Source: an uncultured Clostridia bacterium (GTDB lineage: Bacteria; Bacillota_I; Bacilli_A; RF39; UBA660). Taken from it: a DNA stretch of 45,425 nt. Below the pieces are notes generated by a model, which was given only the letters and a program-made list of their open reading frames with translations, was not told where the DNA came from and did no database searches. The DNA lies in NCBI GenBank assembly GCA_947643225.1, contig CANRVH010000007.1, positions 1-45,425 on the forward strand, in the 5' to 3' direction. The position numbers were made by a program, and so were the translations under genes. Of this stretch, positions 1,590-43,600 are shown piece after piece (position 1 is the first letter of the stretch; each line of letters starts with the position of its first letter).

Positions 1590-1759
1590 TGTGGGCATAT
1601 GAAAAAAGATTACAATATCCAATTAATATTAAGAAAAAAAATTTAAAGATGGCAAAGGTGTTAGTTACTCAGTATGGTGGTGCATATTGTAAAAGAGACA
1701 TTAATTATAATACAACTCCAAAATATTATCATTTGGATCAAATTCTACTTTATTTATAA
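1589..1759 (+). pseudogene. cotJC: cotJC 5' fragment, interrupted by the prophage
   Basis: Start of the manganese-catalase-like coat protein CotJC. The first 31 codons encode the conserved N-terminus (MWAYEKRLQYPINIKKKN, then KVLVTQYGG). The reading frame enters phage DNA after 1683, continues for about 25 foreign residues and stops at 1757-1759. Replacing sequence after 1683 with sequence from 39068 restores a continuous 187-residue CotJC, the normal family length. The gene is therefore split without loss of coding sequence. SD GGGAGG lies at 1574-1579. Confidence 0.9.
1673..1683 (+). other. attL core (TATGGTGGTGC)
   Basis: The 11-bp core is identical at 39057-39067. It encodes Tyr-Gly-Gly-Ala of CotJC in both halves. 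Left of it is host sequence and right of it is phage sequence. Confidence 0.9.
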
Positions 1760-3143
1760 GTATATTAGCAACTTCATTTTTTTCTTTTATAGATATGCTA
1801 TCATCTATTAATATTTGGTAAATTTTTTTACCATTTTCTAAAATTTCTTTTTTTCTATTATTTTCTTTTGGTTTCTCTGTTAAATTCAATTCTTTTATAA
1901 GTTTGTTTTTTTCTTTTAAAATAATATTTTTATTTTCTTTATATTCTTCTAGAGTATCTATTCCTTCCCTGTAAGCTTCTTTTATTCTTATTTCTTTTTC
2001 ATCAAGCTTCTCTAATTGTTTCTTTATAATACCGTATTTATTAGAGATTTCCTCCTTTTTATGAGGAACAATGTTATTAATAACACCATTATCTATGTTT
2101 TCCTTTATCATTGAAATTATTAGATTATATACTTCGTTTATATCAAGAGTAGAGTAGTTAGAACATTTTCCTTTATTGTATCCATTGCATCGTAATTTTG
2201 CTTTACCACAAGTAACCATAGTACAACCACATTCCTTGCATCTTATCAATCCTTTAGTCCAATGTTTAGGATTGGTGCTTGTTTGTTGATGTGGTTTTTT
2301 CCATTTATTATTTTTAGCTAATTTACATTGCACTGTATTCCACAAATTTATATCTATAATTGGTTCATGTTTACCATCAACTAAAATAGTGTTTGGATCA
2401 TCGAAGTCGTAGGTGTCTCTTCTTCCAGGAGTATATCTTAATTTACCAATGTAGACAGGATTATTAAGTATATAACTTATAGTTCTATTTTCAAATTTAT
2501 TTCCTTTTTTTGTTTTAATACCTAATTCATTTACATCTTTAGCAATTTGTAGCATTGGTATATTGTTCAAACCATGTTCTTCAAAAATCATTTTAACAAT
2601 ATTTTTTTCTATTTGATTTGGTATGAATTTATTATCTACTATGTCATAACCAAATGGCGGTTTTGCTTGTGGCTCGCCCTTAGAATGTTTTTCCAGTTGC
2701 CCTTTTTTTACTTCTCCAGACAAGTTAATAGAGTAGTATTCTGCCATAGCTTCAAGAATAGCTTCCATTATAACACTCATTTTATCATCAGGATTGAGAG
2801 GTTCTGATATAGAAATAACAGGTATTCCATATTCTTTTTTTAATAGTGATTTATATACTATAGAATCTTCTCTGTTACGTGAAAATCTATCAAGTTTATG
2901 TACAAGTATTACATCAAATTTTTTTGGTTTAGATTTGGCTTGTTTTATCATTTCCATAAATGCAGGTCTTTTTTCTGCTTTCCGTCCTGATATTCCTTCA
3001 TCCTTAAAAATAAATTCTGATTCTATTAATATATCATTATTTTGTGCATACTGTTTTATTGCTTTTAATTGTGCAGCTAGAGAATAACCATCTCTAGCTT
3101 GTTCATCTGTTGACACTCTTATATAAACTGCTCCGATTTTCAT
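1701..3143 (-). CDS. Large serine recombinase (phage integrase)
   Basis: Site-specific serine recombinase of 480 residues that integrates and excises the prophage. The N-terminal resolvase domain (about 1-150) has the nucleophile Ser11 in YIRVSTDEQ and the conserved DRFSRNRED segment. The recombinase domain (from about 160) begins near PPFGYDIV. A zinc ribbon around 298-330 has paired cysteines (RCKECGC, then RCNGYNKGKCSNY), followed by a Lys/Glu-rich coiled coil. Its stop codon abuts the phage arm of attL, the usual arrangement for these integrases. Excision normally needs a directionality factor; the HTH protein at 38275 is a candidate. Confidence 0.95.
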   Translation of the reverse strand: MKIGAVYIRVSTDEQARDGYSLAAQLKAIKQYAQNNDILIESEFIFKDEGISGRKAEKRPAFMEMIKQAKSKPKKFDVILVHKLDRFSRNREDSIVYKSLLKKEYGIPVISISEPLNPDDKMSVIMEAILEAMAEYYSINLSGEVKKGQLEKHSKGEPQAKPPFGYDIVDNKFIPNQIEKNIVKMIFEEHGLNNIPMLQIAKDVNELGIKTKKGNKFENRTISYILNNPVYIGKLRYTPGRRDTYDFDDPNTILVDGKHEPIIDINLWNTVQCKLAKNNKWKKPHQQTSTNPKHWTKGLIRCKECGCTMVTCGKAKLRCNGYNKGKCSNYSTLDINEVYNLIISMIKENIDNGVINNIVPHKKEEISNKYGIIKKQLEKLDEKEIRIKEAYREGIDTLEEYKENKNIILKEKNKLIKELNLTEKPKENNRKKEILENGKKIYQILIDDSISIKEKNEVANILINKVEFDPNDNILELYYN

Positions 3144-17640: not shown

Positions 17641-18405
17641 ATGGAAAATAAATTAGAAATATTAAAAGTAGAATTAAACGAAAATCAAGAACCAATAGTT
17701 GGAGGAAGAGAATTACACGAAGTTTTAGGAGTAAAAACTCAATATACAAAATGGTTTGAAAGAATGTGCGAATATGGATTTTTAGGATTATTGGTTAGTC
17801 AAAAATGTCTAACCAATAATCCTAAAAATCCATATACAGAAGTAATCAATCACGCAATTAAATTAGATATGGCTAAAGAAATAGCGATGATACAAAGAAA
17901 TGAAAAAGGTAAACAAGTAAGACAATATTTTATACAGGTTGAAAGAGATTTTAATAGTCCAGATAAAATCATGGCTAGAGCTTTAAAAATGGCAGATATC
18001 AAAATAAATCAATTATCTATAAATATGGAAAAATTACAATTAGAAAATTCACAAAAGGAACAAGTCATAAACGAATTAAAACCAAAAGCAGATTATACAG
18101 ATAAAATTTTGCAAAGTAAAAATTTGGTTACAATAACAGCAATAGCAAAAGATTATGGCATGGGTGCTAAAACTATGAATAAAAAGCTTCATGAATTAGG
18201 AGTTCAATATAATTTAAGTGGTCAATGGCTATTATATGCTAAGTATCAAGATAAGGGTTATACACATAGTGAAACTATAGATCTAAATCATAAAGATGGT
18301 AGCGAGTTTGTAAAAATGAATACAAAATGGACACAAAAAGGTAGGTTGTTTCTATACGAATTATTAAAAGATAATGGGTTATTACCTATGATAGAAAGGA
18401 TATAA
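17641..18405 (+). CDS. Phage antirepressor (AntA/AntB plus KilAC)
   Basis: A 254-residue protein. The N-terminal AntA/AntB domain (about 12-110, VGGRELHEVLGVKTQYTKWF) is followed by a coiled linker and a C-terminal KilAC DNA-binding domain (about 140-250, SKNLVTITAIAKDYGMGAKT and TQKGRLFLYELL). Antirepressors inactivate the CI-type repressor. It lies far from the immunity region and directly before the tRNA and late genes. Confidence 0.85.
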   Translation: MENKLEILKVELNENQEPIVGGRELHEVLGVKTQYTKWFERMCEYGFLGLLVSQKCLTNNPKNPYTEVINHAIKLDMAKEIAMIQRNEKGKQVRQYFIQVERDFNSPDKIMARALKMADIKINQLSINMEKLQLENSQKEQVINELKPKADYTDKILQSKNLVTITAIAKDYGMGAKTMNKKLHELGVQYNLSGQWLLYAKYQDKGYTHSETIDLNHKDGSEFVKMNTKWTQKGRLFLYELLKDNGLLPMIERI

Positions 18406-18505: not shown

Positions 18506-18538
18506 GAGGAACCAAAATAATGGTTTTTCTCTTTTTTT
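18506..18538 (+). terminator. Terminator after the antirepressor
   Basis: A 9-bp stem (GAGGAACCA / TGGTTTTTC with two G-U pairs), AAATAA loop and a long T-run. It separates early/regulatory transcripts from the tRNA and late operon. A -10-like TATAAC at 18610-18615 lies 21 nt before the tRNA and may start late transcription. Confidence 0.6.
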
Positions 18539-18635: not shown

Positions 18636-18712
18636 CGCAGGGTGGAGCAGTCTGGTAGCTTGTCAGTCTCCTTAGCTGAAGGTCGTAGGTTCAAATCCTA
18701 CCCCTGCAACCA
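18636..18712 (+). tRNA. Initiator-type tRNA with anticodon CCU (reads AGG)
   Basis: A 77-nt tRNA with encoded CCA. Acceptor CGCAGGG pairs with CCCTGCA except C1xA72, the hallmark mismatch of bacterial initiator tRNA. D-stem GAGC/GCTT keeps A11:U24, another initiator mark, and the D-loop AGTCTGGTA, variable loop AGGTC and T-loop TTCAAAT match initiators. The anticodon loop is CTCCTTA, so positions 34-36 (18670-18672) are CCU instead of CAU. Anticodon stem 29-31/39-41 is A-U, G-C, U-G rather than three G-C pairs, keeping the central G30:C40. Position 37 is U, unusual. I infer initiation at AGG: eight downstream genes have AGG at the start position. The amino acid it carries (Met, Arg or other) and whether it is formylated are unknown. 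Confidence 0.93.
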
Positions 18713-18737
18713 AATGAAACATAGGAGGTGGTATATT

Positions 18738-18953
18738 AGGAATTTAAATAAGTATATAAATATGCTATTGATAAATTTATCTGAGAGATATGATATATCA
18801 CTTGTAGAAGTATATAAACCAAGAGAAGGAAAAGTATTTAAAAATTATACTGTGAATTTAAAAGTAAAAGAAGATGATGAGGAAGCTTCAAATGAACAGC
18901 ATCATTTTAGCAACAAAAGAAAGTTAGTGAGTTGGTTAATATGTCTAAAGTAG
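18738..18953 (+). CDS. Small late protein starting at AGG
   Basis: A 71-residue protein directly after the tRNA. AGG at 18738 is 7 nt after AGGAGGTG (18723-18730). An in-frame ATG at 18714 exists but lies upstream of that SD and only 2 nt after the tRNA, so AGG is the better start. Helical N-terminus, charged C-terminus; it overlaps the terminase start. Function unknown. Confidence 0.65.
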   Translation, partial: RNLNKYINMLLINLSERYDISLVEVYKPREGKVFKNYTVNLKVKEDDEEASNEQHHFSNKRKLVSWLICLK

Positions 18954-20611
18954 TTAATAAGAAAACATCAAGAACAAAATTAACTGATAAGCAAAAAAAG
19001 AAGATAATAGCTGACTATGTAGATAACAATAATTATTCTGAAACTGCAAGAATGAATAATGTAAGTGAGTATACCGTTAGAACTTTATGCAAAAGTGATA
19101 ATAACAAAGAGGTTAAAGAAAAAATCGAGCAAAAAAAAGAAGAAAATACTAAAACGATGCTTGATATGATATCAAAAACCAATGAGAAAAGACTGAATGT
19201 AATTTCTAAATTAGTTGATGCCATAGATGATAAAGCAGAGAAAGTTGATCAATTTACGAGTGTTAAAGATTTAGCTAGTGCATATGGAATTTTGATTGAT
19301 AAAGAATTAAAGTTTGCAGAAATGCAAAAAGTTAATCTTGAAAAGAATAAGCCATTAGTTTATTTGCCTGCTAAAGATATAGGTAAAGGATTTGTTGATT
19401 TATATAGGGATATTAAAGAAAGAAAGCATGATGATTATTGGTTAGAAGGTGGACGTGGTTCTATTAAGTCATCGTTTTGGAGCGAAATAGTTCCAGAAGA
19501 ATTAGAAAATCATCCTAACTGGTGTGCTATATGTATTCGTAAAGTTGCTAATACATTGAAAGATAGTGTTTATAGTCAATTGGAATGGGGAATGGATAAA
19601 CTTAGTGAAACATTTCCTTTTATTAATGAAAATTGGAAGAAAACTACAAGTCCTTTGGAAATGAAAAATAAAAATACTGGTCAAATGATTTATTTTAGAG
19701 GGGCAGATGATCCTGGTAAAATTAAATCTATCAAACCTCCAAAAGGAATGTACATAGCATTAATAATATACGAAGAGTTTGACCAAATGAATGGAATGAA
19801 TGAAGTCCGTAAGATAGATCAATCAGTAAAACGTGGCGGTAATGAATTTATTACATTTAGAATATATAATACACCTAAATCTAAACGACACTTTGTTAAT
19901 GTAGAAAAGAGATTACCTAATCCTAAAAGGCTAGTACACAGAAGTACATATTTAGATGTTCCAGTTGACTGGTTAGGAAAGCCATTCTTTGATGATGCAG
20001 AGTTATTAAAGCAGAATAATCCAATCGTATATGCTAATGAATATTTAGGTGAAGAAACAGGAGATGGTGGCAATGTATTTGAAAACGTAGAATTGAGAGA
20101 AATTGCTAATGAAGAAATAGAAAATTTTGATTACACATATCAAGGTATGGACTTTGGCTGGTATCCTGACCCTTTGGCATGGACAAAAATGTGTTATCAA
20201 CCTAATAAATTAACACTTTACATTTTTGATGAATTTGTAGTTAATAAAATGAGTAATGCTGAAGTTTGGAATTATTTACAGGAAGAGAAAAAAGTAGATA
20301 ACAACGATTTAATTACTGCTGATAGTGAAGATATGAAGTCAATAGGAGATTTTCAAAGTTATGGTTCTCTTATGAGGGGAGCAAAGAAAGGACCTGGAAC
20401 AGTGGATTATTCAATGAAATGGTTAGCAAGATTAGCAAAAATAGTAATAGATCCAAAAAGATGTCCGAAGACTGCAGAAGAATTTACAACTTATGAACAT
20501 CCACAGGATAAAGATGGCAACTATATAAGTGGTTATGTAGATAAAGATAATCATTGTATAGACAGTGTCAGGTATGCGTTAAATCCTGTTTGGCGAAGAA
20601 AGGGAGAGTGA
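18941..20611 (+). CDS. terL: Terminase large subunit with N-terminal HTH
   Basis: A 556-residue packaging motor. The ATPase has Walker A-like GGRGSIKSS (about 170-178) and Walker B ALIIYEEFD (about 273-281). The nuclease domain starts near YQGMDFGWYPDP, with a second acidic site TADSEDMKS. Residues about 15-60 form a helix-turn-helix like that of small terminases (NNYSETARMNNVSEYTVRTL). No separate small terminase is visible, so TerS may be fused. It belongs to the PBSX-like terminases. ATG start at 18941. Confidence 0.92.
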   Translation: MSKVVNKKTSRTKLTDKQKKKIIADYVDNNNYSETARMNNVSEYTVRTLCKSDNNKEVKEKIEQKKEENTKTMLDMISKTNEKRLNVISKLVDAIDDKAEKVDQFTSVKDLASAYGILIDKELKFAEMQKVNLEKNKPLVYLPAKDIGKGFVDLYRDIKERKHDDYWLEGGRGSIKSSFWSEIVPEELENHPNWCAICIRKVANTLKDSVYSQLEWGMDKLSETFPFINENWKKTTSPLEMKNKNTGQMIYFRGADDPGKIKSIKPPKGMYIALIIYEEFDQMNGMNEVRKIDQSVKRGGNEFITFRIYNTPKSKRHFVNVEKRLPNPKRLVHRSTYLDVPVDWLGKPFFDDAELLKQNNPIVYANEYLGEETGDGGNVFENVELREIANEEIENFDYTYQGMDFGWYPDPLAWTKMCYQPNKLTLYIFDEFVVNKMSNAEVWNYLQEEKKVDNNDLITADSEDMKSIGDFQSYGSLMRGAKKGPGTVDYSMKWLARLAKIVIDPKRCPKTAEEFTTYEHPQDKDGNYISGYVDKDNHCIDSVRYALNPVWRRKGE

Positions 20612-20615
20612 TAAT

Positions 20616-21914
20616 AGGATAATAAACTTTTGGAATAAAATACTTGCCTTATTTGAAAAAAAGCAGGCTATAGATGATAAAAATTTAGAAGAAAATAAAA
20701 GATACGCTCATAACTATGAAGATACTAAAGATATTAATTTCACTGCTATATTCTCAAATAAACTAGCTAATTATGTTGTAAGTGATAGTAGTATAAATAT
20801 AGTGATTAATAATAAGAGAGATGAAGTGTTACAAAAAGTATTAAAGAATTTAAAGAAGAAATTAAAAAAAGTAGTGTCTCGAAGTTTAGGAACAGGTGGT
20901 GTTTTAGTTGTACCATATGTTGCTAGTGATAGATTATATTTTAATATTATCAATCAAAGTAGATTACTTATCAATAAAAAAATAGGTGATGATATTGTCG
21001 ATTGTACTATATTAGCAGAACATATAATTAGAGATCAAAAAAATTATTACAGATGGGCGGATTATACATTAGAAAATGGAAATTTATATATTAAATATAG
21101 GGCGACAGTTGAAAGTAATTCTATCTCTATGGAAACAATTCCAGAATGGATAAATATAAAAGATATATCAATCACGAATGTCGAAAGAATGCCGTTTATG
21201 TTTATTAAATCTCCTATCGATAATCGAAAAGAAAATGATGATTATGGTGTACCTATAACGTATGGTTGTGAAAAACAAATTTTTAAAATAAGAAAAACTC
21301 TACAACAAATAGATAGAGAATATGAATTAAAAGAAGCTTTTGTTGGTGCTGATATAACTATGTTCAAAGGCGAAGGAGCATTACCAAAGAACGGACTCTA
21401 TAAAAAAATAAATGCTGGTGATGATAATTTTTGGGAAGTGTTTGATCCTGATTTTAGAGATACTCCTTTGTTCAACAAATTAATGAATGAATGTTCTATG
21501 TTAGAAAAACAAATAGGAACAAGTGAGGGTATTCTTACTAAAGCAGAAACCAAAAATGCAACAGCAACTGAAATAAGAAAGATAATGAAAGATACCTTTG
21601 ATTTATGTGATGATATAAGAACAGAGTTAGAAGAAGGTTTAGAGGATTTTTTGTATGCGTGCAATGTACTAGCAAACTATTACAAGCTAACTCCTCAAGG
21701 AGATTATGAATTAAAGATAGATTGGTCTTATTCGCTATTAGAAGATACACAACAGGAATTCAATCAGTTTTTACAAGGAGAATCAAGAGGAGTGATAAAA
21801 AAATCAGAATTGAGGCAGTTTATCAAACCTAATGAAACACTAGAAGAAGCACAAGTTGTTATTGATGAAATAAAAGAACAAACTCCAAGTACACAAGACT
21901 TATTAGGAGGTTAA
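20616..21914 (+). CDS. Portal protein, AGG start
   Basis: A 432-residue portal of the SPP1/A118 type, the dodecameric DNA channel at the capsid vertex. The frame is open from AGG 20616, placed 9 nt after AGGGAG. It encodes a typical portal N-terminus (x-IINFWNKILALFEKK). The first in-frame NTG downstream is GTG 20802, which would remove 62 residues, so the full protein requires AGG. Typical segments include SRSLGTGGVLVVPYV and GILTKAETKNATATEIR. It follows terL, as expected. Confidence 0.88.
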   Translation, partial: RIINFWNKILALFEKKQAIDDKNLEENKRYAHNYEDTKDINFTAIFSNKLANYVVSDSSINIVINNKRDEVLQKVLKNLKKKLKKVVSRSLGTGGVLVVPYVASDRLYFNIINQSRLLINKKIGDDIVDCTILAEHIIRDQKNYYRWADYTLENGNLYIKYRATVESNSISMETIPEWINIKDISITNVERMPFMFIKSPIDNRKENDDYGVPITYGCEKQIFKIRKTLQQIDREYELKEAFVGADITMFKGEGALPKNGLYKKINAGDDNFWEVFDPDFRDTPLFNKLMNECSMLEKQIGTSEGILTKAETKNATATEIRKIMKDTFDLCDDIRTELEEGLEDFLYACNVLANYYKLTPQGDYELKIDWSYSLLEDTQQEFNQFLQGESRGVIKKSELRQFIKPNETLEEAQVVIDEIKEQTPSTQDLLGG

Positions 21915-22640: not shown

Positions 22641-23834
22641 AGGATAAGCGAAGAAGTATTAGAAAAAATATCAGAGAGGCTTGTTAACAGAATAGAAGAA
22701 TTAAATCTATTTATGATTAATAAGCTGGGAAAACAAATAGTAGATATTGGTACAGTGACACCCAGTCAAGTAGCGGAGGTGTTACAATCGATTAAATACG
22801 GTAATAACATAAATGAAATAATGAGTAAGATAGCTGAAATAACTGATAAGAATGTAGAAGATATCTATGAAATGTTTGAGGAAGTAGCAAAATTAAACCA
22901 AAATTATACTAAACAATTTTACGAGTATAAGAAAGTTAATTTTATTCCATATGATCAAAATAAAGCATTACAGGAACAGGTTAAGTCAATTGCAAAGGCT
23001 ACTGCTAATGAATATATAAATATGAGCAAGACTTTTGCATATATGAGATATAATTCAGAAGGAATAAAAGAGTTTACTTCTATATCAAATATCTACCAAA
23101 AAGTAACTGATGAGGCTATTTTAAGTGTTGTTCAGGGTAGAAGTTCTTACCAAACAGCAATGCAAAAGGCAATGAGAGAAATCACTTCAAATGGTCTAAA
23201 AACTGTAGATTATGCTACCGGCTATTCTAGAAGAGCAGATTCATCTGTAAGAATGAATATTATGGACGGTATAAGAAGATTAAATAGAGAATTGCAGGAA
23301 TCATTTGGAAAAGAATTTGGAGCAGATGGTGTAGAAGTGTCTCATCATAAGAATTCAGCTCCTGATCATATTGATACGATAGATGGAAAACAGTTTAGTC
23401 TTAATGGGAAAGTGATGATTAAAGGCATCAATTATCAAGATTACAATACTGTTAATAACTCTCTAAAAAGACATGTAGGAGAACTAAATTGTTATCATTT
23501 CGTTTATTCTGTTGTTTTAGGTATATCTAATCCCTTATATTCAAAAGAACAGTTAGAGGCTGATAAAAAGGTTAATGAAGAAGGGTTTGAATATGAAGGT
23601 AAGCATTATACTATGTACGAAGGCACACAACTACAAAGACAAATAGAAACAAAAATAAGGCAGTATAAAGATAAACAAATAGGAGCTAAAGTAATAAATG
23701 ATACTGAGGAGATATATCACTGTCAAGAAAAGATAAGACAGCTTACACAAAAGTATAAAGAACTATCTGATATTAGTGGTTTACCTTCTAAGATTGATAG
23801 ATTACGAGTAGAAGGATATAAGAAAGTGAAGTGA
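22641..23834 (+). CDS. Minor capsid protein (phage minor capsid protein 2 type), AGG start
   Basis: A 397-residue head protein. The N-terminus SEEVLEKISERLVNRIEELN matches the family's beginning, and the conserved core includes RRADSSVRMNIMDG, EVSHHKNSAPDH and GKQFSLNGK. An in-frame TAA immediately precedes AGG 22641, so initiation cannot lie upstream. The first in-frame NTG downstream is ATG 22713, which would remove the conserved helix. GGAGG is 7 nt before AGG. This is the clearest single case for AGG initiation. Confidence 0.88.
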   Translation, partial: RISEEVLEKISERLVNRIEELNLFMINKLGKQIVDIGTVTPSQVAEVLQSIKYGNNINEIMSKIAEITDKNVEDIYEMFEEVAKLNQNYTKQFYEYKKVNFIPYDQNKALQEQVKSIAKATANEYINMSKTFAYMRYNSEGIKEFTSISNIYQKVTDEAILSVVQGRSSYQTAMQKAMREITSNGLKTVDYATGYSRRADSSVRMNIMDGIRRLNRELQESFGKEFGADGVEVSHHKNSAPDHIDTIDGKQFSLNGKVMIKGINYQDYNTVNNSLKRHVGELNCYHFVYSVVLGISNPLYSKEQLEADKKVNEEGFEYEGKHYTMYEGTQLQRQIETKIRQYKDKQIGAKVINDTEEIYHCQEKIRQLTQKYKELSDISGLPSKIDRLRVEGYKKVK

Positions 23835-23838
23835 TAAT

Positions 23839-24501
23839 AGGAACGATATAGGTGGTGCATGGAGGACTGTAGGGGGCAAGAGAATATTCATTAAAGATGG
23901 TCAAGATTTAGCAACTGCTATGAAAGAAAGTGGTAAATTTATTAATAATAAAAACAAGGGCTATAAAAAATTAAACGAAAGTGAAATAGAAAACCTACAA
24001 AAATCTAGTGATGAGTGTTATAATAAGCTTACTTCTGACGAGAAAGAAGCTATACAATATTATTGTGAGGATGGCTATAGTGAAGTTAATGATTATTTAA
24101 ATAATAAATTTGATGGTTATGAAAGTACAAATGATTTTATAAAACAAATAGATAATGTGATGACAAAGTATAAATTAAAAGAAGATGTAATAACATACAG
24201 AAAAACTGACAAACAATTTTACAAAAACTACAACGTTGGAGACACTTTTTCAGAAAAGATGTTTTATAGTACTTCATTAAACAAGAATATAGCGGATAAC
24301 GTGAGTGATTATCATGAAAATCCTATAATTGCTGAAATAAGAGTTCCTAAAGGTACTAAAAGTATATATATCGGAGGGAACAATCCTTATGAATTTGAAG
24401 CTGAACTGTTATTATCAAGAAATTTATCATATAAAGTTATTGAAAAATCCGAAAACAATATTATTTTGGAGGTTGTAGATGAAAAAAGAAAACGAAATTA
24501 A
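23839..24501 (+). CDS. ADP-ribosyltransferase toxin-like protein, AGG start
   Basis: A 220-residue protein of the R-S-E ADP-ribosyltransferase class: Arg121 in ITYRKTD, STS at 144-146 in FYSTSLN, and E187-x-E189 in FEAELLL. The N-terminal part (WRTVGGKRIFIKDGQDLATA) is typical of effector domains attached to phage head proteins. Such enzymes are often packaged and injected to modify host targets. AGG 23839 is 4 nt after the previous stop, with only a weak SD (AAGTGAT). The first downstream ATG (23920) would remove 27 residues. Confidence 0.75.
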   Translation, partial: RNDIGGAWRTVGGKRIFIKDGQDLATAMKESGKFINNKNKGYKKLNESEIENLQKSSDECYNKLTSDEKEAIQYYCEDGYSEVNDYLNNKFDGYESTNDFIKQIDNVMTKYKLKEDVITYRKTDKQFYKNYNVGDTFSEKMFYSTSLNKNIADNVSDYHENPIIAEIRVPKGTKSIYIGGNNPYEFEAELLLSRNLSYKVIEKSENNIILEVVDEKRKRN

Positions 24502-25471: not shown

Positions 25472-26392
25472 AGGTATTTAAAAGATGAATTAAAAGGGTT
25501 TGTTCCTACAGAACAAGCAAAAGATATTATCAAAGGAGTAGCACAAGGTTCTGTGCTAATGAAATTATCACATGTTGAGTCTATGAAAAGTGATGAAAAA
25601 ACATTTAATGTTTTAACCGATGGACCAGGAGCTTACTGGGTTGGGGAAAGCAAGAGAATTCATACTTCAAAAGCTACATGGATTCACCCAAAAATGAAAG
25701 CTAAAAAATTAGCTGTAATTATCCCAGTAACTAAAGAAAAATTAGAAGATTCAACAATCGAAGTATTTAATGAATTGAAAGAGGGCATTTCAGAAGCGTT
25801 TTATAAAACGTTTGATTTAGCTGGTTTATTTGGTGAAGATTCCCCATTTGAAAAAAATGTACTAAGCGTTGCTACATCTGCAGGTAACGTTGTTGTTCTT
25901 GGAACTAATGGTGAAGGAAAAATTGATCTAGATGTATCTGATGCTATGGCATTAGTTGAAGAAGAAGATTTCGATGTTACTTCATTCGTAGCTAGAAAAG
26001 GTGTTAAAAACTCTTTAAGAAAATTAAGAGATGCGAACGGAAACCAATTGTATGTTGAAGGTGTAAATGGTGGAGAATTTTATAATGAACCTATTGAATT
26101 TGCACAAAAGGGAGCTTGGGATAAAACAAAAGCAGAAATTATCGGTGGAGATTTTAAAAAGTATTCTCTTATTGGTATTAGAAGTGGGATTTCTTATGAA
26201 GTATTAACAGAAGCAACACTTCAAGATACTTTAGATGAGGATGGTAAACCATTATCACTAGCTGAACAAGATATGATTGCAATTAAGGCAACTATGAGAC
26301 TTGGGTATTTACCAGTTAAAGATGAAGCTTTCTGTGCAATTGTTCCAAGTGGTTCTACAACTGAAGGTGAAGAAAGTGAAGGCACAAAGTAG
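25472..26392 (+). CDS. Major capsid protein, AGG start
   Basis: A 306-residue HK97-fold capsid protein. Typical segments are GAYWVGESKRIHTSKATW, AVIIPVTKEKLEDS and TMRLGYLPVKDEAF. The frame opens at AGG 25472, 10 nt after AGGAG (25457-25461), and encodes YLKDELKGFVPTEQAKDIIK, the usual N-arm. There is no in-frame ATG/GTG/TTG between AGG and the late internal start at 25553, which would remove 27 residues. A decoy ATG (25462) opens only an 8-codon frame. Confidence 0.9.
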   Translation, partial: RYLKDELKGFVPTEQAKDIIKGVAQGSVLMKLSHVESMKSDEKTFNVLTDGPGAYWVGESKRIHTSKATWIHPKMKAKKLAVIIPVTKEKLEDSTIEVFNELKEGISEAFYKTFDLAGLFGEDSPFEKNVLSVATSAGNVVVLGTNGEGKIDLDVSDAMALVEEEDFDVTSFVARKGVKNSLRKLRDANGNQLYVEGVNGGEFYNEPIEFAQKGAWDKTKAEIIGGDFKKYSLIGIRSGISYEVLTEATLQDTLDEDGKPLSLAEQDMIAIKATMRLGYLPVKDEAFCAIVPSGSTTEGEESEGTK

Positions 26393-27466: not shown

Positions 27467-27867
27467 TGAGTGTAAAAATGAAACCTACAAGTGTAATTAA
27501 AACACGATTAGGCATCCAAAAAAATGGACCAGCTCATGCATTTTTAACTGATACTTGTTTTAGATATATGAGTTCTTTTGTTCCAGGAGGAGTTAACAGT
27601 CATTTAAATAAGTCCGTTGATAAACAAGTAGATAAAGGTATATACCAAGGACGTGATCCTCAATTTTTGTATTATGGAAAATTAATGGTTGACCCAGTAA
27701 CGAGGAGTGCATGGGCTAGAAAAGGAGAAAAAAAAGTTTTAACTAATAAAGATTTAAAATTTCACACTCCAGGAACAGGAGCTTATTGGGATAAAAGAAT
27801 GATGACATCGAAGGGTAATGAGGTAGTAAAGGAAGTACAAGAATACGTGAATAGAGGGTGTAAATAA
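27466..27867 (+). CDS. Minor capsid protein (completion module)
   Basis: A 133-residue protein resembling the minor capsid 2 (PF11114-like) group: FLTDTCFRYMSSFVPGG and RDPQFLYYGKLMVDPVTRSAWA. ATG start overlapping the previous stop. Its TAA overlaps the next AGG by one base. Confidence 0.7.
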   Translation: MSVKMKPTSVIKTRLGIQKNGPAHAFLTDTCFRYMSSFVPGGVNSHLNKSVDKQVDKGIYQGRDPQFLYYGKLMVDPVTRSAWARKGEKKVLTNKDLKFHTPGTGAYWDKRMMTSKGNEVVKEVQEYVNRGCK

Positions 27868-28268
27868 GGATTGAAAAGATAAGACAATATTTAATTGATA
27901 TTAATATTATTGATAAAAATTGTAGAATAAACGTTGATTTTTTGGGAGAAAATCCAACTGAGTTTGCTATAGTTCCAATTCCTGTTGATCCAATATTGGA
28001 AAGACATGTAGATGGTTCATCATTAAGACAATATCAATTTCAATTAATTAGTTGTAATGATTATGGTGCTGATGTTCTTCAGAATATGGCCAATAGTAAA
28101 TTTTATGAGGATTTATATGATTTGATAGAAAAAAATAATAAGAAAGAAATATGGCCGGATATAGAAGGCATAGAAAGTATAGAATGTTTAAACAATGGAG
28201 CAATATCGGATGCTACAACTAATACTGCAAGATATTCAATTCAAATGAAAATTATATATGGAAAATAG
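27867..28268 (+). CDS. Minor capsid / tail terminator-like protein, AGG start
   Basis: A 133-residue protein of the minor capsid 3/tail completion type (YLIDINIIDKNCRINVDFLG, with QYQFQLISCNDYG). AGG (27867-27869) shares its A with the preceding TAA, like the common TAATG overlap. GAGGG lies 8 nt upstream. The first internal NTG start (27942) would remove 25 residues including the conserved N-terminal helix. Confidence 0.82.
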   Translation, partial: RIEKIRQYLIDINIIDKNCRINVDFLGENPTEFAIVPIPVDPILERHVDGSSLRQYQFQLISCNDYGADVLQNMANSKFYEDLYDLIEKNNKKEIWPDIEGIESIECLNNGAISDATTNTARYSIQMKIIYGK

Positions 28269-28279
28269 GAGGCAAGATA

Positions 28280-28795
28280 AGGGGAAAGTATAAAAGAGAA
28301 CAATATCAAATATTTGTAGATCCTACTAAAAAGGGAGATGCTACATCTATTTGGGAGGTAATAGGAAAGGATAATGATGAGTTGTCCAAAGAATTAAACA
28401 ATGAGGTAGAAGAAACTAAAAATGTTTTAGGAGAAACAGAAGTTGATGTAACAGCTGGCAACAGGACAATGTCTGTAGATCCATATAAAATGAGAAAGGA
28501 ATCAAAATTTGCTGATGAGTTATATGATATTATTAAATACGATAGAGATGGTTCTGATGTTGAATATCCATTTTTGGAGGTTAATACCTTTAAAGAGGTA
28601 GGAGAAAATACAGGTGAATTTGATGCTTGGATTCAGAGTGCAGCCGTTGATCTAAAATCATATGGTGGAGATGTAAAGGCTATTGGTGCACCTTTTGATA
28701 TTCATTTTATAGGTAAAAAAACATATGGAACGTTTAACCCATCAACTAGAAAATTCACACCAGAAACTGCAACAATTAATACCAAAAGTAAGTAA
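28280..28795 (+). CDS. Tail tube (major tail) protein, AGG start
   Basis: A 171-residue major tail protein. AGG 28280 lies 7 nt after a perfect AGGAGG (28267-28272) and is followed by GKYKREQYQIFVDPT, a typical tail-tube N-terminus. Other segments: GNRTMSVDPYKMRKESKFAD and GAPFDIHFIGKKTYGTF. The next in-frame NTG is TTG 28382, 34 codons inside, which would remove conserved sequence. Confidence 0.85.
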   Translation, partial: RGKYKREQYQIFVDPTKKGDATSIWEVIGKDNDELSKELNNEVEETKNVLGETEVDVTAGNRTMSVDPYKMRKESKFADELYDIIKYDRDGSDVEYPFLEVNTFKEVGENTGEFDAWIQSAAVDLKSYGGDVKAIGAPFDIHFIGKKTYGTFNPSTRKFTPETATINTKSK

Positions 28796-29913: not shown

Positions 29914-31924
29914 TGGGGATGGACAAGTTGTAATTGGAACGGAATTAGATACTGATAATTTTGATAAAGAAGTATCACATATTGAAAAAAGACTTAATGA
30001 ATTGGATGAAAAAAGTAAAAAGCCAATTGAGATAAGCGGTGTCAAGATTACAGGAACAAATAATCTCACGGATGAAGAGGTAAATGAATATAATGAACTT
30101 CAATCCAAATTGGGTGAATTATACAGTCAGAAGATGGAACTATCAAAAGTTGAAAAGTCTATTTCACAGGAATTAAAGAATCAAGAGGCAACTATTGAAA
30201 AACAAAATAATTCAGTTCAAAAACAAAGTTCAATAAATTCTAGCAATGCTGAAAAAATTTCGGTTCTATCAGCTCATTTGGAAGAAATGTTAAAAGAATA
30301 TAATGATATAAAAGGCGCAAATATTATTAGTAGTAAGGATTTAGGTAGAGCGAATGAATTAAAAAAAGAAATAAAACAAACTTCTAAAGAAATTGAAAAA
30401 CTTGGTGGAGGAAAAATAAGTATTAATGGAATTACAGATACATCTAAGAAAATTGAAAATATAAATAGTGGACTTGAAAATACTATAAAAAAAGTTGGAA
30501 AATGGGCATTAGCGGTATTTGCAATAGAAAGTGCATATGGTGCAGTAAGGAATGCTATAAGTACAATATCACAATATGATGATCAAATACAAAGCAATTT
30601 ACAATATATCCAATATGCTTTAGCAAATGCATTAAAACCACTTATAGAGACTATATTAAATCTTGTTGTGAAATTATTACAATATGTTAATTATATCGCT
30701 CAAGCATGGTTTGGAATAAATTTATTTAGTGGTGCTAAAGAGTTTCAAAGTATGGCTGATAATTCAAAGAAAACGGCTAAAAATGTTAGGGAAACTCGAA
30801 AAAGTTTAATAGGTGGTATAGATGAAATAACCATTTTAGATTCTGACAAAAGTAGTGAAAATGATAATATTACAGGTTTAGAAAATAAAATACCTAACTT
30901 TGATTTATCCACTCTAGATGGGCCTATTCCTGCTTGGTTAAAATGGATTGTTGACCATAAAGATATAATATTATCTGTAATGGCTGGTATAACTGCAGGA
31001 TTGCTTGCTTGGAAACTTGGACTTGGAGGTTTGAAATCATTAGGAATAGGTATTGCAATAGCAGGCATTGTTTATGCAATTCAATCTATAATTGAATATT
31101 TAAAAGATCCTAGTTGGGAAAATTTTGGGAAAATAATTACTGGAATAGGGCTAACTATTGCAGGTGTTGCTATTGCATTTGGAGCATGGCCAATAGCAGT
31201 GGCAGGTGCTGTTGTAGCGATTTTAGGAATTATTGTATCTCATTGGGAAGAAATTAAAACTTTCTTCTTAAATATTGCTACATGGTTAGAAAATAACCTC
31301 GGAGAATTCGGAAAATTTTTAGGTGGTGTTATAAGAGACTGGCTATCTATATTTGACGGACTATTTACAGGTGCAAAACAAATTTTTGATGGAATAATCA
31401 AAATAGCAAAAGGTGATTTTGCTGGCGGATTAGAACTGGTAATAAAAGGGTTGGCTAATTGTATTATTTCGCTTGTAAATAAAATGATAACAAGTCTTAA
31501 TACTGTCATTTCACCAATACGGAGTTTAATTGTTGCAGTAGGAAAGGTTACTGGCAAAAATTGGACGATGAGTAATATAAAAATACCAACACTTCCAAAA
31601 CTTGCAAAAGGAGGAATTGTTAACAATCCAGGAAAAGGTGTTAATATGGGATCTTATGTTGCAGGGGAAAGAGGAGCAGAAGCTATCCTTCCATTACAAA
31701 ACAGTAAGTTTGTAAATGATTTTGCTAAGCAAGTGGCTGATCAAACAGGTAATAACGATTTAATTATTCAGTTGTTAATAGATTTAAATAGAAATATATC
31801 AGAACTAGCAAAACAACCAACTATTTTAAATATTAATGGTCAGGAATTGGCTCAAGTAACATATGAAGATTTTGAAAACGAAGGAAGAAGAAAACAAAAA
31901 TCTACCACAATAAAAAGGAGTTGA
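29906..31924 (+). CDS. Tape measure protein; start uncertain (possibly GGG)
   Basis: A tail length determinant of about 670 residues: N-terminal coiled coil (about 10-180), a hydrophobic middle (about 345-460, LSVMAGITAGLLAWK and following) and the C-terminal ILPLQNSKFVNDFAKQV segment. The frame's only NTG (GTG 29906) lies inside the SD GGAGG and is unlikely. The ATG at 29913 is out of frame. GGG 29915, 8 nt after GGAGG, would give x-DGQVVIGTELDT, a common tape-measure N-terminus. A CCU initiator could read GGG by first-position wobble, as CAU reads GUG. One missing G after ATG is the alternative. Confidence 0.85.
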   Translation: MINGDGQVVIGTELDTDNFDKEVSHIEKRLNELDEKSKKPIEISGVKITGTNNLTDEEVNEYNELQSKLGELYSQKMELSKVEKSISQELKNQEATIEKQNNSVQKQSSINSSNAEKISVLSAHLEEMLKEYNDIKGANIISSKDLGRANELKKEIKQTSKEIEKLGGGKISINGITDTSKKIENINSGLENTIKKVGKWALAVFAIESAYGAVRNAISTISQYDDQIQSNLQYIQYALANALKPLIETILNLVVKLLQYVNYIAQAWFGINLFSGAKEFQSMADNSKKTAKNVRETRKSLIGGIDEITILDSDKSSENDNITGLENKIPNFDLSTLDGPIPAWLKWIVDHKDIILSVMAGITAGLLAWKLGLGGLKSLGIGIAIAGIVYAIQSIIEYLKDPSWENFGKIITGIGLTIAGVAIAFGAWPIAVAGAVVAILGIIVSHWEEIKTFFLNIATWLENNLGEFGKFLGGVIRDWLSIFDGLFTGAKQIFDGIIKIAKGDFAGGLELVIKGLANCIISLVNKMITSLNTVISPIRSLIVAVGKVTGKNWTMSNIKIPTLPKLAKGGIVNNPGKGVNMGSYVAGERGAEAILPLQNSKFVNDFAKQVADQTGNNDLIIQLLIDLNRNISELAKQPTILNINGQELAQVTYEDFENEGRRKQKSTTIKRS

Positions 31925-31928
31925 TAGA

Positions 31929-32309
31929 AGGGCATTTATAGAAGCAAGTTATGATAATAACGTATGGTTTGATTTACCCACACCATCAAAGGATAATTTC
32001 AGTCCAACTTATACTCACTTAGAAAATTCATTTAGAGATTCAATAGGTTATTTACATAGAGATATAAAAAGAAGAAATCTTACAAAGGTAGTAGTAGGTT
32101 GGTCAAAATTAAATGCCGAACAAATGGCCTTATTACAAACACTATATGAAAAAGATTATTTTTATTTGAAATTTACTGATAATTATGGTAATAGAGTTGT
32201 TAAAAAAGTATATGCTGGTCCACTCGATGGGAAAACAAAATATGCCGATATTAATACATATTTATTAGTAAAAAGAACTGATGTTCAAATGAGCTTTATC
32301 GAGTATTAG
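31929..32309 (+). CDS. Distal tail protein, AGG start
   Basis: A 126-residue protein of the tail-tip type (AFIEASYDNNVWFDLPTPSK; C-terminal LLVKRTDVQMSFIEY). AGG 31929 is 8 nt after AGGAG (31916-31920) and 4 nt after the tape measure stop. The next NTG start (32124) would discard half of the protein. In family members this N-terminus begins with Met at this position. Confidence 0.82.
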   Translation, partial: RAFIEASYDNNVWFDLPTPSKDNFSPTYTHLENSFRDSIGYLHRDIKRRNLTKVVVGWSKLNAEQMALLQTLYEKDYFYLKFTDNYGNRVVKKVYAGPLDGKTKYADINTYLLVKRTDVQMSFIEY

Positions 32310-40486: not shown

Positions 40487-40612
40487 GTGAATAAAATTAT
40501 TAATTATTTTTTTGATGAGGAAGAGAAGGAGGAGTTATTGTTTCTTTATGTTCGTATGGCAATATTATATTTTATAGGGATAATTGTTTTAATTTTAACG
40601 TTTATTCTTTAG
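40487..40612 (+). CDS. 41-residue membrane microprotein, host copy
   Basis: GTG start with SD AGGGAG (40473-40478). Sequence begins MNKIINYFFDEEEKE and continues with one transmembrane helix. The first 15 residues equal those of the phage microprotein at 17285. It lies between the response regulator and the NdvB-like gene, overlapping the latter's stop by 11 nt, convergently. Its role may relate to the membrane or to signalling. Confidence 0.7.
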   Translation: MNKIINYFFDEEEKEELLFLYVRMAILYFIGIIVLILTFIL

Positions 40613-43600
40613 TAATATATAAGTCTATATTATGGGGCTTGTAATCGTTTTTAAGTTCTATGTAATCTATATTTTCTTGCTGGTTGTTAATCAGTAGTTT
40701 ATTTTCTTTATTATTTATGATGATGTTAATGTGATATGTTGTATTTAAATACTGGTAAGTTAATTGATAGTTTTTTATGGAAGATGGTAAATGAGGTTTA
40801 ATATACAGTTTTTTGTTTTTTCTTTTAAAACCTAAAATTCCTTCTAGTCCTATTTGATAAAGATAACTTGAGTACTTATTTATTTTTTCTATATTTTCTA
40901 TATTATATGATGTTATATTTTGGAAATGTTCATAGAGTATATCATAAGGTTGTTCCTTTAAAAGAAAATATAAATATAATATTTCCTTATTCTGTAAAAA
41001 AGTTGGTATTTTTTTTGAAATTATAACTTTTTCTTCTTTATTTGTGGTTATTCCTAATAAAATTCTATATATTTTACTTATTTTATCTTTATCTTTTAAA
41101 AGTTCTTTTTTTATTGTGGTTAGTTCTTCTTTTATTTTTTTGGTATCGATGTTTTTATCATATTGTTTTGATAATTTGATAAATTGTTCTAGAATCATAT
41201 ATAAATAAAATTTATTGGTGTTTTTTTCTTTTTTTAAATTTGTTATTTTTATTTTTAATTGTTCATAAAGGTTTGCCTCTTTCTTTATTTTTTCACTTAA
41301 AATTTCTGTTTGCTCAGATTGATCAATATAAATAGAAGTTGTATAGATTAGATAAAATAAGTTTTCTTCAGTTAGTTCTTCTTGTATATTATTTATTATG
41401 GTCTCTTTTGCTATTTCTGGAAATATACTTAATATATTTAAACTATTTCTTAGACATGACTGGTTGCTACTTTGAAATATTTTTTCTGTAAGTGTTTTGT
41501 ATAGTAAACTATGATTTATTAAATCATCAAAGAGTTGGTTATTTGTTTTTACTTTAATTTTATTTAACATGGTTTTAAAGTAATTTGTGCTAATTGTAAG
41601 TGAGGTATTAATTGTTGCTATATTAGAATATTTTTCCTTCAAAAAGTTTAAGTATGTTAAATCTGATATTCCTAAGGTAAAGGCTAGTTCTTTGGATGAG
41701 TTTTTAGGAATCATTTTTTTAATTTCTATTATTTTTTTTGATGGATTACTTAAATTTACATTTTTAAATTTTTCTGTACAGGTGATATAGCAGGTATTTC
41801 TAAAAAAGTAGGAGTTTAGTTTATTTTGCATGGTAACTAAATTATTTTGCTCATTATATTTACAAAGAATATATCTGCTACTGTTGGGAAAATCGTCGAT
41901 AAGTGTTGGATGAATGATGTATTTGATAGAAATAGATAATGTTTCTTCACTATTGTTTTTGATTGTCAATTTGTAGAATTTTGTTTTTTCAAAGTAAGAG
42001 ATGAATTCTGTTAGTTCTATAGCTAATTTTTTTGTTTTTGCTAAATATGTTGTATATCCGTGACCATATTTTATTGTGTCAAAAATTAGGTTTGTATTGT
42101 TAATGATTATTTTTTCTTTGAATGATAATCTCATTTTATTATTAATATAAGTATAGTTTTCTGCATTAGGAGTAGTAATTGTTTTTAATGATGTAGGTGA
42201 AGTGATGGTATGATTGGATAGGAATTTCTTTCTTTCTTTTACATTTAATGATAGATCGTTTGAATTTATCCCCTTTTTTTCTTTATAATTTTCTTTTTCT
42301 ACTTTTTTTAAATTTTTTTTCAATTTTGTTAAATAGTCTGTTAAATTTTGATAAAGTGTCGCATCAATTGTTAAGTAGGATAGAGTATAAAATAAAATAA
42401 TTTCTTCTTTAGATATACTTTGTTCATCTAAGATGTATATTTTTCCAGGAATTTTTAGTAAGTGTTTTTTTTCTTCTTTGATATGATATTGTAAATCTTT
42501 TAGGTATTCTTTATCAATATTATTGAAAATGACTAGGTGTAGTGGAAAGTTATGTTCTTTTACATATGTAAAAAATAAAACTGTTTCTTTTAATATTGAT
42601 TTATTGGAAGTATTTCGAAGATCTAGTATCATTAAGGGTATATTAGCATCAATATTAAATTTTTTTAGATTCTCTGTTGTTAAAATATTATAAGTCAATA
42701 GTTTTTTTCTTGCTTCATTTATTTTAAATTGATTGACTTCAATAAGATAATTTAGAAGAGAGTAGTTTGTAGTTAATTTCTTTTCTTTTGTTAATGTAAA
42801 CAAAGATTTGATATAGGGAATCTTATATTGATTAATTAGTGATTCAATATTCATATTTTCTGAGATTATAGTAATCATATATAGTTCTTTTTTTTCTTTT
42901 ATTTTTAATTTTTCTGTTTTTAATCTGATTTTTTTTTCTTCCTCTAAAGATAGTTCATTTTTGGTGTTTAAAAAATAAGTTGTTATATAGATATTATGAT
43001 TTTTATTTTTAATTGTTAAAGGAAGGGGATTGATTAATTCTTCATTTTGATTTATTGTTAGAAGAAATTCTAATGATATGTTGGTTGTTTCTTTCTTTTT
43101 ATTTTCTAATATTAATTTCTTTATTTCAATATGATCGAATTCAGAGATGATTGGTTCTATTGTTAATTTTATTTCTTTATATTCTTTGTTTATTTTTACT
43201 TTGTTTACTTTTAAATCAATATTAGTTGTTTGAAGGGGAAGGGGGTCCTTATTATCTATTTTGATTTGAAGTTGTTTATTCCAATTGGTTTTTAATAGTT
43301 TATCTCCTTTATATTTTATTATTTCTGTTTCATTGCGGTCTATATAAAGTGATAAATTTTTGTTGGATAAGATGGATGTATCTAATTGTACTTCTTTTTT
43401 TTCAACGATCTCTTTTATGGTAAATGGTTGTTTTGTGTTTCTTTTTTTATGAATGATGTAAGATAGAAGTGGAGAAAGCAAAAAGATTATTCCTGTTAAA
43501 TTGTGTAATAGAAGAAAAATAAGACCCATAGTGATATTTATTTTATATTTTGTTTTATCCTTTTCTCTTTTTATAATCGTGAATAGATATTCAGGAATAT

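Follow-up and report, generated by a model that had tools for sequence, protein, structure and literature searches.

An initiator-type tRNA with a CCU anticodon lies ahead of phage late genes

A tRNA with the body of an initiator and the anticodon CCU, placed just ahead of phage genes that appear to begin with AGG, raises the question of whether a phage can start its proteins at a codon of its own choosing. The locus lies in a 45,425-nt contig from an uncultured Clostridia bacterium, all of which was analysed and is here called the window. In order, it contains a site-specific recombinase (1701-3143), an S24/HTH repressor-like gene, RecT, a KilAC antirepressor, terminase, portal, minor capsid, capsid and tail genes, and it likely holds a prophage. 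A very long ORF with a GH94 supersandwich match (40602-45293, - strand) is probably a host gene past the prophage end. The tRNA is found between the antirepressor and terminase genes, 3' of a terminator-like hairpin that is a possible late-operon boundary, and just ahead of the late genes:

17641-18405, + strand: phage antirepressor, the last early gene before the tRNA
18506-18529, + strand: terminator-like hairpin with a T tail, between the antirepressor gene and the tRNA (1 found against 0.1 expected in shuffles)
18636-18712, + strand: initiator-type tRNA with C1xA72 and an encoded CCA; anticodon CCU at 18670-18672

The tRNA is real and of the initiator type. It is the sole tRNA called by ARAGORN in the window, at exactly 18636-18712, where it is named tRNA-Arg with anticodon CCT, and it matches the Rfam tRNA family at 55.0 bits (E 3e-9). 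RNAfold on the single sequence gives an uninformative z of -0.74. When the genome that holds the window was searched with the tRNA stretch (E 0.001), the only other match was the host initiator tRNA-Met(CAT), at 76%.

An excerpt of a review (PMC7949028) lists C1xA72, G2:C71, C3:G70, A11:U24 and three G:C pairs as initiator features, and names G2:C71, C3:G70 and A11:U24 as aids to formylation. Read from its sequence, the window tRNA has no Watson-Crick pair at 1:72 (C1xA72, where an elongator tRNA-Arg(CCU) would be paired), and it has G2:C71, C3:G70 and A11:U24, a GGTA D-loop, U37 and an encoded CCA. From the three consecutive G:C pairs expected at 29-31:39-41 it retains G30:C40 alone (29:41 is A:U and 31:39 is U.G), and its anticodon is CCU instead of CAU. 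A sequence-only reading of this DNA had already described C1xA72, A11:U24, initiator-type loops, an encoded CCA, the anticodon CCU, the loss of two stem G-C pairs with G30:C40 kept, and U at 37; each of these agrees with what we find.

The same constraints are visible in 21 variant tRNAs from the search described below, all chosen with an unpaired 1x72. In this alignment 96.9% of stem cells are paired, and double changes occur at 14 of 20 pairs, a level of covariation reached in 0 of 500 shuffles. G30:C40, G2:C71 and C3:G70 are invariant (21/21), and A11:U24 is present in 17 of the 21. The formylation set is therefore retained and, among the three G:C pairs, the middle one alone is always kept. 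Throughout the AGG, ACG and AAG systems, anticodon bases 34 and 36 are C and U, and only the middle base varies.

AGG occupies the start position of eight late genes

Downstream of the tRNA, eight late ORFs have AGG at the start position, in keeping with the AGG starts that the sequence-only reading had seen there:

18723-18730, + strand: Shine-Dalgarno AGGAGGTG ahead of the first AGG start
18738-18953, + strand: AGG-start gene in the terminase-small-subunit position, 71 aa, no PHROG match
18941-20611, + strand: terminase large subunit (PHROG search from codon 2); its ATG start was assigned without a Shine-Dalgarno match and is uncertain
20616-21914, + strand: AGG-start portal protein (PHROG)
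22641-23834, + strand: AGG-start minor capsid protein 2 (Phage_min_cap2)
23839-24501, + strand: AGG-start ADP-ribosyltransferase-domain gene of the phage; no ortholog start is well aligned
25472-26392, + strand: AGG-start major capsid protein
27867-28268, + strand: AGG-start tail completion protein
28280-28795, + strand: AGG-start tail protein (phrog_3099)
29915-31924, + strand: tape-measure ORF, GGG at codon 1 by alignment
31929-32309, + strand: AGG-start tail-region protein (DUF6711-like, below the Pfam cut-off)

Shine-Dalgarno matches of 5-8 bases precede the AGG ORFs at 18738, 22641, 25472, 28280 and 31929, and weak ones (4-5 bases; GAGG, AAAGG or GTGAT) precede those at 27867, 20616 and 23839. 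Near the 5' ends of the eight ORFs, no ATG, GTG or TTG with a 5-base Shine-Dalgarno match was seen, with one exception: the 28280 ORF has such a TTG 34 codons in, which counts against its AGG start. The scaffold gene (24908) and several other late genes of the window retain ATG starts.

The ADP-ribosyltransferase-domain gene adjoins the minor capsid gene and shares the AGG at the start position, which may keep a host-takeover function silent in the lysogen.

The aligned start codon follows the anticodon in related phages

When 196 related genomes were searched with the portal, four relatives other than the window itself came up, at 52-78% identity; L003 comes from IMG/VR, and L059 was found through the tRNA pattern. 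The tRNA is CCU in the window and L059. In L018, which belongs to the same genus as the window, it is CGU with C1xA72 (L018:4481-4556). The aligned start column reads AGG in the window and L059, ACG in L018 and ATG in L016 and L017, and in L003 and L019 ATG lies at the column or one codon before it. By gene, the starts are:

First gene, 71 aa (18738): AGG in the window and L059, ACG in L018, ATG in L016 and L017
Portal: AGG in the window and L059, ACG in L018, ATG in L016 and L017, ATG one codon earlier in L003 and L019
Minor capsid protein 2: AGG in the window and L059, ATG in L016, L017, L018, L003 and L019
Tail completion: AGG in the window and L059, ACG in L018, ATG in L016, ATG one codon earlier in L003
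Gene 27466: ATG in the window, AGG in L059, ACG in L018
Tail protein (28280): AGG in L059; the phrog_3099 gene of L018 starts ACG
Tail-region gene (31929): AGG in L059; L018 has an ACG-start ORF of similar size after the tape measure
Tape measure: GGG in the window, AGG in L059, ACG in L018

Five of the eight AGG genes thus have ATG orthologs at or beside that codon. For the capsid gene (25472), the L016 ortholog, 93% identical, has ATG one codon upstream of the AGG position, and all 21 of the 23 capsid relatives found in IMG/VR that include the N-terminus have ATG 1-4 codons upstream. The GGG of the tape measure may be a wobble start, GGG:CCU being analogous to GUG:CAU (U36.G wobble).

Two loci count against a strict correspondence. 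The minor capsid gene of L018 starts with ATG despite the CGU tRNA, and L016 carries a CGU initiator-like tRNA (L016:2216-2289; G1xA72, G30:C40 lost) in the same operon position while its genes start with ATG. The L016 tRNA is likely a decayed relic of a lost system.

Model R1, run on 13 of the 23 capsid-relative loci, gave three matches of one kind; the L169 match was read as CAT. It is a 53-nt tRNA-like gene (L169:2030-2082; similar in L170 and L173) with a CAU anticodon, CCA and apparently no T arm, which sits upstream of the capsid region in ATG-start relatives and is possibly a minimal initiator tRNA.

Other phage lineages pair variant tRNAs with matching start codons

The sequence-only reading had proposed looking through phage genomes for initiator-like tRNAs with anticodons other than CAU and comparing them with the starts of late genes. 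A strict CCT tRNA pattern gave 0 matches in viral contigs; the families came from a relaxed pattern (an initiator-type tRNA with a GGTAGCT D-arm and a position 35 other than A), which found 17 IMG/VR and 13 GTDB stretches. Position 1x72 is unpaired in 24 of these 30. The phages that carry 18 of these 24 have matching starts, although several are copies of one phage and for three (L022, L035 and L026) the support comes from one or two genes; the other six (L024, L030, L034, L041, L047 and L048) have no matching starts. In all, a codon/anticodon link is present in four phage groups and three pairs (AGG/CCU, ACG/CGU and AAG/CUU), with AUA/UAU and AAC/GUU as two weaker pairs.

The CUU group (L061-L065, L046 and L036) starts genes with AAG. 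By PHROG, these include the terminase small subunit, portal, capsid and major tail protein of L061 and the capsid and major tail protein of L062. Among 12 IMG/VR relatives in the CUU portal family, 10 start with AAG and 2 with ATG. A CUU tRNA lies upstream in 6/6 AAG portal loci with enough contig (L098, L099, L101, L105, L106 and L109), and none was found at E 1 in the 6 kb upstream of the ATG portal of L107. L101, L105 and L106 have a different tRNA body with the same anticodon arm as the rest of the group. In these three tRNAs and those of L143 and L144, T-loop G55 and A18 replace the usual G18/U55 pair; the occurrence of such odd tertiary pairs in two separate lineages suggests selection on the tRNA body. 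The related CUU phage contigs L042, L043 and L044 are binned in MAGs called Clostridia, Gastranaerophilales and Methanobrevibacter, and are probably misbinned.

A CCU tRNA is paired with AGG in the Lacrimispora prophages L066 and L067 and the related IMG/VR contig L028, and in L066 the AGG starts are those of the terminase small subunit, portal, head closure, tail sheath and tape measure. Two strain records contain a system of this type, L. amygdalina PI-S10-A1B (NZ_QOHO01000016.1) and L. defluvii PI-S10-B5A (JAAOXG010000061.1). The nearest portal relative of this type, L110 (49%), has no ARAGORN tRNA; its observed/expected counts in the test described below are 9/1.3 for ATG and 0/1.0 for AGG, and its portal gene yielded no start preceded by a Shine-Dalgarno match.

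L071, also CCU, has AGG starts at genes that include portal, capsid, tail terminator and major tail genes. Its portal family comprises 39 IMG/VR loci, 37 of them with the N-terminus (9 AGG, 28 ATG). A CCU tRNA with unpaired 1x72 is located 2.9-5.1 kb upstream of the AGG portal in 7/7 loci with enough sequence, a count that leaves aside L113 and L114, which have only about 1 kb upstream. The same kind of tRNA was found upstream of 0/28 ATG portals; of these, 22 are preceded by at least 4 kb of sequence and 16 by at least 5.2 kb. Fisher values for this family ignore descent; as the AGG portals group into a single clade in a 34-row tree, the L071-family loci may represent one event. In L123, an ATG-start relative, there is a 70-nt tRNA with a CAU anticodon and C1xA72 (L123:7926-7995).

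Three cases are weaker. L053 has a UAU tRNA and an ATA-start ORF directly after a stop codon, with the Shine-Dalgarno GGTGAT; judged from its own sequence only, this ORF is terminase small-subunit-like. In L022/L035, which have a GUU tRNA, the first gene after the tRNA alone starts with AAC. L072 (CCU) shows AGG at portal-like and capsid-like ORFs by eye, with a codon-blind count of 2/1.6.

Several candidates were not counted as support because matching starts are absent: L024/L030, L034, L041, L047/L069, L048/L068 and L074 (from L025). L024/L030, one phage with little sequence, has a CCU tRNA with C1xA72 and visible terminase genes that start with ATG, and so counts against the pairing. The L041 tRNA belongs to a series of tRNA genes and is followed by three tRNA-Met. 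Position 1:72 is paired in L031, L032, L037, L038 and L049 (C1:G72) and in L025 (T1:A72). An ATG start is visible downstream in L057/L058 (CAG), and three GenBank phage records matching the window tRNA read CAT (H1 and H37) or CAA (H2).

Matching codons are enriched after Shine-Dalgarno sites

We applied a codon-blind test to ORFs of 80 codons or more. Within their first 40 codons, the number of times that each codon followed a Shine-Dalgarno match of 5 bases or longer, at spacing 4-10, was compared with the frequency of that codon there. In the late region of the window, AGG was observed 7 times against 2.0 expected (p 4e-3), and only ATG ranks above it; in the early region, it was observed once against 0.9 expected. 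Observed/expected values for AGG elsewhere are 8/1.5 in L059, 10/1.8 in L071, 20/9.1 in three closely related Lacrimispora-type loci and 4/0.8 in L144 (where ATG is 5/1.1). ACG gives 7/1.0 in L018 and L060 together, and AAG 26/7.3 in seven related CUU loci. Taken singly, L101, L105 and L106 give 5/1.7, 4/1.3 and 3/1.2 for AAG (p 0.02, 0.04 and 0.1). After the portal start, Shine-Dalgarno-led AGG occurs 8, 8 and 7 times in L115, L117 and L118 and ATG 0, 0 and 1 times, while 12 ATG-start relatives give 1/3.2 for AGG and 73/14.0 for ATG.

Within each group, the other two codons of the AGG/ACG/AAG trio show no enrichment. Enrichment of the matching codon is also absent from the early regions of the window and two CUU phages, from L016, and from L017, L003 and L019 pooled; the early region of L018 has 12 Shine-Dalgarno sites only. 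In the CUU group ATA, too, exceeds its expectation (18/9.5, p 7e-3), which counts against the proposal, and scattered other codons have p values of 0.01-0.05. Since the group counts take in close relatives, their p values overstate independence. The window alone gives only the p of 4e-3; the decisive support is comparative.

Predicted use of the tRNA and alternative explanations

An initiator-type body with CCU, together with AGG where relatives have AUG, makes it likely that the phage initiates there with its own tRNA. Judged from these sequences, we think it highly probable that the phage initiates late virion genes at AGG via its own CCU initiator tRNA. The data show plainly how the tRNA is built, which codon occupies the start position, and that codon and anticodon match across phage lineages; from this we infer use in initiation, charging, formylation and a benefit to the phage.

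The tRNA would be transcribed first in the late operon; a host synthetase would charge it, it would be formylated through C1xA72/G2:C71/C3:G70, and IF2 would carry it to the P site. AGG, positioned by a normal Shine-Dalgarno site, would pair with CCU in a duplex that IF3 would accept. As host fMet-tRNA(CAU) would be a poor reader of AGG, the virion proteins concerned would be made only once the phage tRNA is present. Gating of late genes is the most likely benefit, and independence from attack on the host initiator tRNA is possibly an added one. With regard to charging, MetRS needs CAU, the CUU anticodon fits LysRS identity, and A20 is the ArgRS identity base. The window tRNA has U20, and A20 is absent from most CCU tRNAs, L143 excepted, which counts against the proposal, as does the loss of two of the three G:C pairs in the anticodon stem.

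Phages have likely evolved private initiator tRNA/start-codon pairs for virion genes, if the sequence patterns are read correctly, with L024/L030 and L016 as exceptions. We are more tentative, at somewhat less than an even chance, about the full claim that phages repeatedly evolved a private start code (CCU, CUU, CGU and possibly UAU/GUU, reading AGG, AAG, ACG, AUA and AAC) in which formyl-Arg, -Lys or -Thr comes first, not methionine, and virion translation is cut off from the host initiator tRNA and coupled to late transcription. The orthogonal initiation system suggested by the sequence-only reading is supported by the codon/anticodon link in related phages, whose absence that reading had named as grounds for rejection; the orthogonality itself is only partial, as many late genes of the window still start with ATG, and use of the tRNA is a prediction.

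Of the alternatives, the one that survives best is that the system is mainly anti-defence, a phage initiator with a changed anticodon loop resisting tRNA-fMet nucleases and start codons having followed the anticodon. Phage tRNAs with changed anticodon loops have been proposed to resist VapC and PrrC, in an excerpt that also cites VapC cutting initiator tRNA (PMC10264068), and the A18 with G55 pairs in two lineages fit this explanation as well. However, simple resistance needs no loss of AUG reading, and the many late genes that keep ATG would still depend on host fMet-tRNA. In addition, the genome of the window has no PIN-domain match at E 0.001 (one 93%-complete genome). We therefore consider resistance as the main function unlikely, though a serious competitor to initiation at AGG for gating.

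It is very improbable that the molecule is an elongator tRNA-Arg(CCU) supplying a rare codon, with AGG after Shine-Dalgarno sites being chance or part of the Shine-Dalgarno signal. While ARAGORN names it tRNA-Arg, phage tRNAs are often thought to supply codons (PMC10264068, in excerpt) and AGG is a minor Arg codon in the window (29/159 Arg codons in the 20 late genes counted), the unpaired 1x72 is initiator-like and the closest tRNA in the same genome is an initiator. AGG use also differs little between early genes (5.0 per 1000) and late genes (6.0 per 1000) among those counted, no enrichment is seen in early regions or relatives without the tRNA, and an elongator would not account for an aligned start that becomes ACG when the anticodon changes, or for the AAG starts that accompany CUU.

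Least probable of all is that the true starts are internal and the AGG region is untranslated: in-frame ATG, GTG or TTG codons do follow after 7-146 codons in the 20 gene pairs examined, some with Shine-Dalgarno matches (e.g. the L066 sheath gene), but a 4-base match is missing at many internal ATGs, alignment with ATG-start orthologs reaches codon 2, and the stretch ahead of the first internal start shows coding-like evolution. Across these pairs, close relatives included, substitutions between the proposed start and the first in-frame ATG, GTG or TTG number 119/76/236 at codon positions 1/2/3 (p 6e-20), a pattern which indicates that these codons evolve as coding.

Relation to known initiation systems

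To our knowledge, the start codon is regarded as almost invariant across life, a single initiator tRNA reading AUG and its near-cognates. A search of the open-access PMC literature found, among the top matches listed, no report of a natural initiator tRNA with a non-CAU anticodon and matching starts. If correct, a natural co-change of initiator tRNA and start codons, involving three codons or more, would mean that the start signal is reassignable. It would also explain the truncated or missed portal and capsid genes to be expected from standard gene callers in such phages, provide protein engineering with a natural orthogonal initiation system, and allow the need for methionine in initiation to be tested directly.

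Bacterial tRNA-fMet, including phage-borne tRNA-Met copies, resembles the window tRNA in C1xA72, G2:C71, C3:G70, A11:U24, G30:C40, size and T-loop. It differs in having CAU, G29:C41 and G31:C39, whereas the window tRNA has CCU, both pairs replaced, and AGG starts in the same phage. Stop-codon recoding phages carry suppressor tRNAs, and in them, too, phage tRNA and codon use change together. Here, in contrast, an initiator-type tRNA would change the start codon while stops are read normally; the CCU, CUU and CGU anticodons all read sense codons, unlike those of suppressors. Nuclease-resistant phage tRNAs (PMC10264068, in excerpt) share an altered anticodon loop; cleavage resistance is proposed there, whereas here the anticodon itself is changed and start codons match.

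Engineered initiator tRNAs, as described in excerpts of three papers (PMC8576571, PMC13232202 and PMC10158994), likewise combine an initiator body, a new anticodon and a matching non-AUG start. Those are man-made and serve a reporter or model peptide, whereas the pairs described here are natural, lie in phage genomes and extend across virion modules. According to the same excerpts, initiators given new anticodons are functional both in E. coli (PMC8576571) and in cell-free systems (PMC13232202). When charged with acetyl-proline, initiator tRNAs bearing other anticodons also function in a reconstituted E. coli cell-free system, provided that the first two base pairs are Watson-Crick (PMC10158994, in excerpt). 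In that excerpt AGG/CCU and ACG/CGU are outside the twelve pairs listed as better than AUG/CAU, which counts against our proposal, and AAG/CUU gave 47.6%, above AUG/CAU.
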